Translations under genes and position numbers: made by a program
Origin: an uncultured Prevotellaceae bacterium
GTDB lineage: Bacteria; Bacteroidota; Bacteroidia; Bacteroidales; Bacteroidaceae
Length of the DNA: 64,000 bases
Assembly (NCBI GenBank): GCA_900318775.1
Contig: ONLY01000003.1
Span: 1 to 64,000 of the forward strand
Direction: 5' to 3'
Shown here: piece after piece, positions 721-42,222 of the stretch
How positions within the stretch are numbered: position 1 is the first letter of the stretch
How the letters are laid out: the number at the start of each line of letters is the position of its first letter
The notes under the pieces: generated by a model
What the model was told of the DNA's origin: nothing
Database searches by the model: none
Seen by the model: only the letters and a program-made list of their open reading frames with translations

Positions 721-785
721 CCGACGTCGTCGATGTCGGCAAGGCGATGTCGACGAGGTCGGTCAATCGATGTCGACGACATCGG
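721..785. repeat. Array of three 19-base near-palindromes, period 23 (copy 1)
   Basis: Three units (721-739, 744-762, 767-785) are centred at 730, 753 and 776, so the spacing is exactly 23 bases with 4-base gaps. Each is an imperfect palindrome around a TCGWCGA core with arms like CCGAYGTCG. The array is flanked by AAAAA on the left and TTTT on the right. It matches the reverse complement of the array at 14052-14116 at roughly 62 of 71 bases. It sits about 40 bases upstream of the promoter of the HU-like gene. Confidence 0.85.
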
Positions 786-824: not shown

Positions 825-855
825 TTGCGGAATCGGAAGTTTTTTCGTAATTTTG
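825..855 (+). promoter_or_regulatory. Promoter of the HU-like gene
   Basis: TAATTTTG (848-855) fits the -7 consensus TAnnTTTG, and TTGC at 825-828 lies 19 bases before it. The start codon follows 46 bases later. Confidence 0.6.
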
Positions 856-901: not shown

Positions 902-1315
902 ATGGCTATACCGTACAGAAAAAGAAAGAAGAAAATCCTTGGTCCTGATCATCAGCAACATGAAGCATGGGTGATGGAGCAGTTCAGTTATGATCCGATT
1001 AAGTTCGAAGATTTTGTGAAGGAGTGCGTAATGGCGCAGGGAGTGTCGGAGGCTCAGGTAAAAGGCATTGCAAGCGCTATGTCAAACCGTCTGCGAACTT
1101 ACTTCACGCTGGGGCACAGCGTGCAGATTGAGGGCATTGGCACTCTTAAACCAACCTTTAATGCGCACAGCGCGGAAACACCCGAAGAATTGGGAAACCA
1201 GAGCGTGTTCAAAGTAAAAATGCAGTTCTATCCACACAAAGCGTTCAAAGAGGTGCTGCGCAACATGACGGTGGTGGATATGGATGCTATCAACGAACTT
1301 ACTGGAGAAGAATAA
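902..1315 (+). CDS. HU-like (histone-like) DNA-binding protein, Bacteroidota HU-related family
   Basis: This 137-residue basic protein belongs, by its pattern, to the HU-related family of Bacteroidota (TIGR01201-like), thought to bind and bend DNA as a dimer. It opens with a very basic tail (YRKRKKK). The middle holds the HU-type helical part (VKECVMAQGVSEAQVKGIASAM) and then the G-x-V-x-I-x-G-I-G-T turn that leads into the DNA-binding arm (GHSVQIEGIGTL). It is longer than classical HU (about 90 residues) at both ends. The start at 902 is the first ATG after the promoter. It is a single-gene unit; the palindrome array upstream is a possible binding target for a nucleoid protein, but nothing in the sequence proves that link. 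Confidence 0.8.
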   Translation: MAIPYRKRKKKILGPDHQQHEAWVMEQFSYDPIKFEDFVKECVMAQGVSEAQVKGIASAMSNRLRTYFTLGHSVQIEGIGTLKPTFNAHSAETPEELGNQSVFKVKMQFYPHKAFKEVLRNMTVVDMDAINELTGEE

Positions 1316-1421: not shown

Positions 1422-1835
1422 ATGGACAAGCAGGGTATTCACAAAGACCGCATTGACGCTATCCTTATCAAGGGAAAGAAGTACCGGGAGCCTTCTTTTT
1501 CCGCTCAAGCATTAGCGGAAATGCTGGAAGTGTCTGCATCAAAATTGTCACGCATCATCAAAGATGAATATGGAATGGCCTATGCAGATATTGTGCACAG
1601 CTACCGTATCCAAGACGCCATGCGCTATTTGAAAGACGCCCGAATGCACCCCTATTCCGTTGATGACATCGGGACATTGGTGGGATTCAAGAACCGGCAG
1701 TCTTTCTTCACCGCCTTCCGCAAGGCAACAGGAACCACCCCAGAGCGCTACCGACGTGATGCCAACGCCCCTAAAGACGCTAGTCCCCAAATGGGCTGCA
1801 AGGCACTGGCCAGTGAGAAGAAGAGGCGTACATGA
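1422..1835 (+). CDS. Small AraC-family transcriptional regulator (DNA-binding domain only)
   Basis: The 137-residue product consists of little more than the two helix-turn-helix motifs of the AraC family. The first HTH is around residues 26-47 (LAEMLEVSASKLSRIIKDEYG). The second, with the family signature, is around residues 80-112 (VDDIGTLVGFKNRQSFFTAF...GTTPERYRR). There is no N-terminal sensor domain, so the signal input is unknown; such stand-alone AraC domains are common in Bacteroidales. The next gene (DPP III) begins 37 bases after the stop with no visible promoter or terminator, so the two may be co-transcribed. Confident on family, no evidence for target genes. Confidence 0.85.
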   Translation: MDKQGIHKDRIDAILIKGKKYREPSFSAQALAEMLEVSASKLSRIIKDEYGMAYADIVHSYRIQDAMRYLKDARMHPYSVDDIGTLVGFKNRQSFFTAFRKATGTTPERYRRDANAPKDASPQMGCKALASEKKRRT

Positions 1836-14051: not shown

Positions 14052-14116
14052 CCGATGTCGTCGACATCGCTTCACCGACCTCGTCGACATCGGTCGACCG
14101 ACGTCGACGAGGTCGG
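14052..14116. repeat. Array of three 19-base near-palindromes, period 23 (copy 2)
   Basis: Units at 14052-14070, 14075-14093 and 14098-14116 are centred at 14061, 14084 and 14107, again exactly 23 bases apart. Units 2 and 3 have arms CCGACCTCG/CGACATCGG and CCGACGTCG/CGAGGTCGG. It is the inverted copy of the array at 721-785, with about nine differences over 71 bases. Flanks are AAA and TTTT. It is downstream of the sigma operon terminator and about 320 bases upstream of the next promoter. Confidence 0.85.
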
Positions 14117-40652: not shown

Positions 40653-40757
40653 CTTTTTATTCAATTAAGTGGGAAGTGATTCTTTTTACTTCACTTTTAA
40701 CACCCTTTTAATCTCCCCCCTAAGCAGGAAGATTTTGGGGCTTTCCCCCTCCAAAAA

Positions 40758-40822
40758 CGGTGTGAGTCACACCGAGGGTGGCGGTCTGAGTCACACCGAC
40801 CATACCGGTGTGACTCAGACCG
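40758..40822. repeat. Array of three 17-base near-palindromes, period 24
   Basis: CGGTGTGAGTCACACCG (40758-40774), CGGTCTGAGTCACACCG (40782-40798) and CGGTGTGACTCAGACCG (40806-40822) are centred 24 bases apart with 7-base gaps. Unit 3 is the exact reverse complement of unit 2. The architecture matches the arrays at 721 and 14052, but the sequence is unrelated. Confidence 0.85.
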
Positions 40823-40884
40823 CCAAAGTGGTGCAGGAAGCACCTCTACAGGATGGGTAAGCGAAGGGGCAAGAAAGCGCACCT

Positions 40885-42222
40885 TCAGTCATCTTTTTCG
40901 TGCAGGAAATCGGGTGTCCGGCGAATATACTCGTAGCCGAACTTACAGCGCAGACAGTCGCGGCGCTGGCAGTAATTGCGATGAAGCTGGAGAAGCGCCT
41001 GAGAGTCGGCAGCGCTCTCGCACGGAATGCCTGCTGCAGCCCAGTCGCGGATGATGGTGTCGTTCTCGGGCGGCAGTTGCTGCCACATGGCGAAAGCGCG
41101 GTCGCAGAGGCGCTGGTCGGACTTGTAGCGGCCATAGGTGAAGAGCATGGGCGCCACGCTGTTGATGATAAGCAACTGGATGGACGCCTGGGAGAGAGCT
41201 TTCTCTGTCGGCTTCGCTGGCTGGGAGGCGAACGTGTAGTGGGTGCGCCAGAAGTCGCTCACATGAGTGAGGAGCAGGGCGCTTACCTCCTCGATGCTCT
41301 CGGCATTGAGAAGGCGGGAGAGATTGAGCCGCTGCTCGTAGTAGAGCATGGCAAGCTGGGCAATGCGGATATGGGGGAAGTTCTGCGGGCGCAGCCTGAG
41401 GAACTTCCACGCGCTGCGCGGTATGGGAGTAAGGGTGAACTTGTGGCGCAAGAAACGGTACTCCTTTTGCAGGCGGACATAATAGTCGTCCTGTGGCTGT
41501 GCTGCCTGCGTTGAAGCAGGAGCTGCACCGGTCGAGGGGTCTTCTTCCAGCAAGCCTGCTTGGCCAAAGAAGATGGCTTCTATCTGGAAAAGGCTGTCGC
41601 GATGCTTTCCCACGGCCATGAGGGGGATGGAACGTGCCCACTGCTCGAAGGCGTCGCCATTGATACCAAAGCCGAAACTGCGTGCCAGGGTAACAAAGAG
41701 GGTGCCTTCCCAGTCTTTGTCGAGGCTCTCGCGGCGCTGCATGATTTGCCGTGCGCGCTCCTCGAAGCGCTGGAGGGCGAGTGTAGTCATCCAGTTGTGC
41801 ACCAGAAAAAGCGGCAGGTCGCCCACTACCCCACGGCAACGAGGACGGACATCGTTGTGGCAGAGTGTGCCGTAGTTCTCACGCACCGAGGCGGGCACAG
41901 GGAGCTGCAGCTGGGGAATGGGCTGCCCGCTGGGATAGAACAGGGGCTGGTCCACCTCGCATGCCACATGGAGGATGATGTTCTCATAGGCGGGGTCGGT
42001 GTCGTGATGGTGCTTGAACCAGTCGCTGGTCTTGAGGTGCAACTCTACGTTGCCTGCCCATTCAGCACCGTCCAGCTTGATTTTCGCCCCTGTGAAGTCG
42101 GGGCCTGCATCCGTGTTGTGAATGCCGGGGTTGAGCACCTCCAGCAGACGCCCATCGGTGGTGCGGAGCTCGCGCAAGGGGAAAAGCCTGTGCATCCACG
42201 TGTAATGCAAGAGTTGTTCCAT
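40885..42222 (-). CDS. DUF2851 family protein
   Basis: A 445-residue cytoplasmic protein matching DUF2851: it starts MEQLLHYTWMHRLFPLREL, and includes GRLLEVLNPGIHNTDAGPDF near residue 24, NVELHLKTSDW near 58 and a C-terminal cysteine cluster (CQRRDCLRCKFGYEYIRR) that may bind metal. The family is widespread in Bacteroidota; its function is unknown to me. An Ala/Gln-rich insertion lies near residue 225. It is divergent from dapB, with overlapping promoters. Confidence 0.85.
   Translation of the reverse strand: MEQLLHYTWMHRLFPLRELRTTDGRLLEVLNPGIHNTDAGPDFTGAKIKLDGAEWAGNVELHLKTSDWFKHHHDTDPAYENIILHVACEVDQPLFYPSGQPIPQLQLPVPASVRENYGTLCHNDVRPRCRGVVGDLPLFLVHNWMTTLALQRFEERARQIMQRRESLDKDWEGTLFVTLARSFGFGINGDAFEQWARSIPLMAVGKHRDSLFQIEAIFFGQAGLLEEDPSTGAAPASTQAAQPQDDYYVRLQKEYRFLRHKFTLTPIPRSAWKFLRLRPQNFPHIRIAQLAMLYYEQRLNLSRLLNAESIEEVSALLLTHVSDFWRTHYTFASQPAKPTEKALSQASIQLLIINSVAPMLFTYGRYKSDQRLCDRAFAMWQQLPPENDTIIRDWAAAGIPCESAADSQALLQLHRNYCQRRDCLRCKFGYEYIRRTPDFLHEKDD

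Follow-up and report, generated by a model that had tools for sequence, protein, structure and literature searches.

The matS sites of MatP, the SBS of SlmA and the NBS of Noc are palindromes found at tens of chromosomal positions, where they are selected irrespective of neighboring genes; they are mostly single, and their sequence is stable over wide taxa. REPIN/RAYT systems consist of short imperfect palindromes in tens of copies, which are mostly extragenic, species-specific, sometimes inserted in-frame within genes, and accompanied by a RAYT in the same genomes (PMC3116915, PMC8049555, PMC6006769). CGTC-type REP repeats are palindromic, occur also in Bacteroidetes, and have no dedicated transposase that could be found; their stem is 8-9 bp long and their loop 4-5 bases, the CGTC tag stands unpaired at the terminus, and most occur as head-to-head dimers (PMC3733652). 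The arrays we describe here differ from the latter in being triples with a 1-3 base center and no tag. Like REPINs, they are palindromic, multi-copy, mostly extragenic, species-specific, and occasionally in-frame in a gene, and they occur in a genus in which most genomes have RAYTs. However, a REPIN is an inverted pair, whereas these arrays have three units at a fixed 23 or 24 bp and no GTAG foot; their RAYTs are not array-flanked on their own account, and their palindrome arms are constrained even where the linked RAYT is lost. With matS, SBS, and NBS they share tens of chromosome-wide palindromic sites selected whatever the gene context, but they form trios, turn over in sequence inside one genus, and have a protein partner known as a candidate only.

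The array at 40758-40822 lies in the window, by which we mean the whole 64,000-nucleotide stretch analyzed (contig C21:1-64000 of the 2.62 Mb genome, in 41 contigs, of an uncultured rumen Bacteroidales). Its class A units follow one another at intervals of exactly 24 bp, and unit 3 is the exact reverse complement of unit 2, both as the initial annotation had reported (Table 1). Within the window, the class A unit pattern has 3 matches at up to 3 mismatches, against 0.22 expected, and none of 100 shuffles reached 3. On a detector that uses only palindromy and unit similarity, the array scores 74, compared with up to 47-51 for shuffled DNA. Across the genome we found 43 exact class A units and 113 with at most 2 mismatches, against 0 for the reversed-pattern control. 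The array is genuine.

Table 1. Arrays, boxes, and neighboring genes in the window.
Feature	Position	Strand	Sequence or remark
Class A unit 1	40758..40774	+	CGGTGTGAGTCACACCG
Class A unit 2	40782..40798	+	CGGTCTGAGTCACACCG; C/C mismatch at arm position 5
Class A unit 3	40806..40822	+	CGGTGTGACTCAGACCG; exact reverse complement of unit 2
Left outer box	40737..40757	+	GGGGCTTTCCCCCTCCAAAAA; degenerate copy of the family outer inverted repeat
Right outer box	40823..40843	-	CCAAAGTGGTGCAGGAAGCAC; inverted partner of the left box
ORF, presumably DUF2851-like	40885..42222	-	Array region lies downstream of it
Class B array	722..784	+	Triple array of period 23; lies upstream of HUb, an HU-HIG gene
Second class B array	14053..14115	+	Period 23; intergenic
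Promoter, which we take to be of Bacteroidetes type from its consensus	825..855	+	TTG-N20-TAATTTTG; between class B array and HUb
HUb	902..1315	+	137 aa, HU-HIG (PF18291); candidate cognate of p23 arrays

Arrays of classes A and B both stand between inverted boxes of about 20 bp, 5'-CTTCC-n4-CCTCAAAA ... TTTTGAGG-n4-GGAAG-3', with the inner part CCTCAAAA common to the two classes. The classes do differ in unit sequence, as first proposed, but the outer box that they share corrects the further statement that they have nothing in common. The two class B (TCGWCGA) arrays of the window were also misdescribed: their period is 23 and their length 63, not 24 and 65. The middle four box bases vary by species (TGCA here, ACTA or ACTG in RGIG3223 and RUG104, and GTCA in RUG14560). 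Between close species the outer boxes drift at the neutral rate of flanking DNA, and thus show no visible present constraint. Spacers inside one genome are of a few recurrent types. Together with the outer boxes common within a genome, this indicates that the copies arose by dispersal, which supports the copying part of an earlier suggestion that a single copying mechanism produced the arrays; no enzyme was tied to that copying.

This genome carries about 38 class A and about 17 class B arrays. Nearly all arrays have three units; the exceptions are one class A array with four and a few arrays with two. Class A arrays were also found in RUG13218, RUG14560, RGIG3223, UBA4359, Candidatus Minthosoma equi, and other relatives, which are uncultured Bacteroidales of rumen or gut. 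Among 61 genomes, the pair pattern is present in 13 of 37 from the same genus and in 0 of 24 from other families of the order. Class A pairs number 74 in this genome, 72 in G010, 67 in G034, 63 in G012, and 56 in G036; class C pairs number 20 in G035, 13 in G003, 12 in G025, 11 in G017, 10 in G016, and 9 in G007; and this genome, G002, G003, G016, G025, and G036 have 33-40 class B pairs each. Two or more families are current in each genome: p24, which is class A here and class C elsewhere, and p23, which comprises class B and its variants (B2, B3, and others). Mutual exclusion of A and C is not significant from counts alone (P = 0.25), and the argument for class replacement therefore rests on the in situ switches described below. 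Class A arrays occupy convergent (14), tandem (12), and divergent (10) intergenic gaps; a promoter or terminator role for all arrays was rejected, given no strong preference for gene orientation. We do not claim chromosomal clustering, as 18 of the 38 class A arrays lie in the two largest contigs yet the omnibus test over all contigs gives P = 0.51. On the same contig but beyond the window, GC skew turns from negative to positive near C21:200 kb; no dnaA signature was found there, and so no replication origin is claimed.

Using the same detector at periods 20-28 and a threshold score of 52, we scanned 464 kb of this genome (C21:1-264000 and C29:1-200000). Triple arrays scoring at least 52 numbered 31, against 0 in five dinucleotide shuffles. 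The initial annotation had held that architecture and not sequence is conserved, and had named such a search against shuffled DNA beforehand as its refuting test; at 31 versus 0, the claim stands, and the varying class at the same orthologous sites in different species upholds it further. Sixteen of the 31 arrays are class A and four are class B. The scan revealed at least five palindrome classes beyond these two, including an even class TGTTACAnnTGTTACA (period 23), TTTCTAAACTTGGAAAT and GTTCATAACTTATGAAC (period 21), and TGCGCACSSTGCGCA (period 23). A decayed array of the CGATGTGGGG type (C21:126063) belongs to a type that is live in G007 and G017. When clustered, as had been proposed, the arrays fall into groups that differ in unit sequence, in parity, and in period (21, 22, 23, or 24), and the class carried varies by species. 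A relative of TGTTACAnnTGTTACA was seen at C29:74583.

At individual orthologous sites, the whole trio of units has changed its sequence jointly. Downstream of the DUF2851-like gene, an array is present in about 12 of 30 same-genus genomes, with classes A, A', B, B2, C, and D represented and several genomes without one. The site holds class A in this genome and G010, a GGGT variant at period 23 in G032, an AGGT variant in G013, class B in G025, G002, and G003, B2 (center CCC/GGG) in G012, class C (TGA to AGA) in G016, and an even AAGCGCTT class at period 22 in G001. The same occurs inside a coding gene. Glycerate kinase contains an in-frame array at one constant codon position across genomes (loci L053, C16:2000-8500 of this genome, L306, L298, L303, L305, L320, and L321), which is class B in this genome, G003, G016, G025, G036, and G062, B2 in G012 and G013, B3 (CGAYGTG-CCC-CACGTCG) in G007, and GGG-centered (CGGTGTG-GGG-CACACCG) in G017; the gene lacks an array in G002 and G035. 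Upstream of HUa, gap-free alignments of eight loci contain units of class A, an A variant, or class C, and the switch from A to C there involved all three units together. Because orthologous sites carry different classes across species, architecture and position outlive sequence; classes come and go on a single layout. In at least ten species, the glycerate kinase triple array and its left outer box are translated, giving an arginine-rich loop that precedes LTVACDVDNP.

Between close species the palindrome arms hardly change. In 24 orthologous pairs of class A arrays, only 6 of 1008 arm sites had changed (0.6%; 2.1% at arm position 5), compared with 33 of 336 spacer sites (9.8%; P = 3 × 10−15). 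All six arm changes come from one pair (L027/L167), in which the outermost base pairs were altered on both sides. The center base had changed in 15.3% of cases, nearly all of them C/G exchanges, and the surroundings by 13.9% in the outer 22 bp, 10.4% in the flank from 23 to 100 bp, and 7.9% farther out. For class B (nine alignments from eight sites), 1 of 324 arm sites (0.3%) and 17 of 108 spacer sites (15.7%) had changed (P = 3 × 10−10), with 7.4% at arm positions 4-5; the half-site is CGANNTCG. No orthologous A or B array that we compared had an internal indel, and spacing was never altered. Array sequence, symmetry, and spacing are therefore kept, and the center and linkers are free. This is the pattern of an array of binding sites, with purifying selection on the site bases but not on the linkers. 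The array at 40758-40822 belongs to a genus-level family of palindrome trios, quite probably protein-binding, whose letters turn over as layout and position persist.

Each array family may have its own cognate protein, and two genes are candidates by their position, HUa for p24 and HUb for p23. HUa is a 133-aa ORF behind the conserved switching array site. The two proteins are paralogues (44-46% identical) that belong to the HU/IHF family, HU-HIG (PF18291), by Pfam score (64.7, 46.2, and 49.1 bits against a cut-off of 26.2). They are the only HU-HIG members found in about 0.88 Mb of this genome (with overlaps). A p24 array precedes the HUa ATG at a distance of 29, 28, or 23 bp in 9 of 10 loci, a figure biased upward because most loci were chosen for containing arrays; the G035 array there has only two units, of class C, and in RGIG3223 the p24 array is 328 bp away from HUa. 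In 8 of 10 loci a -33/-7 promoter (TTG-N20-TAnnTTTG) lies just upstream of the array, which places the array in the promoter-proximal HUa leader, a position expected for autorepression. At HUb, a class B array stands 117 bp upstream of the gene in this genome and G010, two close species only, with about 40 bp between the array and the -33 box that follows it. The predicted structure of HUa (pLDDT 47) was too poor for use. An HU-type reader, suggested by gene position, has in our judgment a little less than an even chance. Counting against it, proteins with the HU fold as a rule show little sequence preference in binding, and to our knowledge IHF does not read palindromes like these; a literature search found no description of the HU/IHF family recognizing palindrome arrays sequence-specifically. 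An AraC-type helix-turn-helix ORF (window 1422-1835) directly follows HUb on the same strand.

Our best explanation, with chances that we judge about even, is that each array is a trio of sites bound by dimeric, sequence-specific proteins and that the specificity of these proteins turns over, with HUa and HUb as the likeliest cognates. One protein dimer would read each of the three 17-bp palindromes, and a spacing of 23 or 24 bp, two-and-a-bit helical turns, would set three dimers side by side. Past copying would have spread the arrays, and selection on palindrome arms and exact spacing would now hold them in place, whatever the gene orientation. Occasionally the preferred sequence of the protein would shift, and the arrays of that family throughout the lineage would follow. 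HUa would read p24, with autoregulation through the array in its own leader just past the promoter; HUb would read p23, from an array upstream of its promoter. Such proteins might have a chromosome-wide architectural or regulatory role. By analogy with the co-evolution of eukaryotic PRDM9 and its sites, it is conceivable, if rather doubtful, that this is a genome-wide turnover of a recognition code, in which small HU-type architectural proteins bind dozens of arrays as well as one at their own gene and, with the evolving specificity of these proteins, the arrays of a lineage change together without leaving their sites, including one inside a coding gene.

The arrays could instead be REPIN-like non-autonomous elements copied by RAYT-type HUH transposases, with array families following RAYT lineages, an account that we consider unlikely but a serious rival. 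RAYT-like proteins with the HUH motif, from a Y1/HUH family akin to the REP-associated tyrosine transposases, were found in 35 of the 41 genomes of the genus; G032, which has an array, gave no RAYT match. The presence of p23 class B tracks the glycerate-kinase-linked RAYT clade (P = 2 × 10−4) and that of p24 a second clade (P = 0.005), with neither P value corrected for phylogeny; array units also fold into hairpins whose mismatch position is constant, and recurrent spacers and species-specific outer boxes within a genome imply copying. However, first-clade proximity is explained by host gene order: the arrays about 1.5 kb upstream lie in-frame in glycerate kinase, and RAYT was accordingly rejected as an adjacent partner. 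Class A arrays have no neighboring RAYT. Second-clade RAYTs have no array directly adjoining, those of this genome (class A) and G016 (class C) are a few percent apart despite the differing class, and the RAYT tree does not part class A from class C genomes. This genome and G010 keep class B with only a 107-codon remnant of the linked RAYT; class B arms are invariant in both, which led us to reject decay of class B here after loss of that RAYT. Nor did we find the hallmarks of REPINs in the arrays, namely an inverted REP pair forming one hairpin element (nearly all have three units at fixed spacing), GT[AG]G at the hairpin foot (the feet are CAAAA/TTTTG boxes or variable spacers), or a cognate RAYT flanked by its repeats. 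A RAYT may have spread the copies, but it leaves the upkeep of the arrays unexplained.

It is very improbable that the arrays are fossil miniature inserts with no present role, similar only through recent bursts. Copy number does differ widely between species, and decayed classes persist in this genome (C21:126063), but orthologous arrays keep invariant arms even with flanks about 10% diverged, which contradicts the fossil reading for classes A and B. Array-free orthologous sites exist (at the DUF2851 site, and in glycerate kinase of G002 and G035), with no target-site duplication established. As to a MITE, the box pattern in this genome occurs at arrays, matches away from them are about as many as in the control, those inspected lie in coding sequence, and no autonomous element bearing the same outer repeats was found. 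We see equally little prospect for arrays that act as RNA structures in transcripts or as bidirectional terminators (a hairpin with a T-run after it), even though GC-rich hairpins adjoin AAAA/TTTT boxes and the array fold is very stable (z = -9.6). Ten array loci gave 0 Rfam matches at the gathering threshold, with sub-threshold matches only for the window region; the T-run is absent at many arrays, including the right side of 40758-40822; the outer boxes drift neutrally; and class A arrays occupy all three gap orientations alike. Between close species, arms show neither wobble nor compensatory drift, both of which RNA structure allows. The constraint acts on sequence, beyond pairing alone, and protein recognition fits better than RNA structure.

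These arrays are an element type defined by layout and not by sequence, in which selection keeps the layout genus-wide while the letters at the same sites change in step. Repeat finders that work by sequence assign these elements to separate, unrelated families, and the kind may therefore be overlooked elsewhere. The natural series of classes (A, A variants, and C; B, B2, B3, and others) could be used to follow joint changes of specificity in a global DNA-binding protein and its many sites. If HU-type proteins do read the arrays, the HU fold would have a sequence-specific, array-reading role, and the arrays could be an organizing system of Bacteroidales chromosomes.

Further triple arrays were seen near RAYT genes. 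AT-rich period-21 arrays (TTTTCCAAGTTGGAAAA, GTTCATAACTTATGAAC) occur at L287 4961 (C19 of this genome), L289 4923 (G010), L311 7198, and L337 6267; in G008:C35 the array lies 175 bp upstream of the RAYT gene. In G013:C46 (L304 880, 9454), even TGTTACAnnTGTAACA arrays of period 23 flank a disrupted RAYT on both sides. The RAYT genes of L267 (G010:C46, beside apparent type I restriction genes) and L268 (G027:C35) are nearly identical in distant genomes, which suggests horizontal transfer. Several genomes without a p24 array upstream of pta have other triple arrays there, TTTGGCTTGAATACAAA, TTCACGCTAAAGTGAA, TGTAACGCTTGTTACA, and TGATTCTTAAGAATCA (L194, L196, L201, L211, and L214), as if the region were a hot spot for them.
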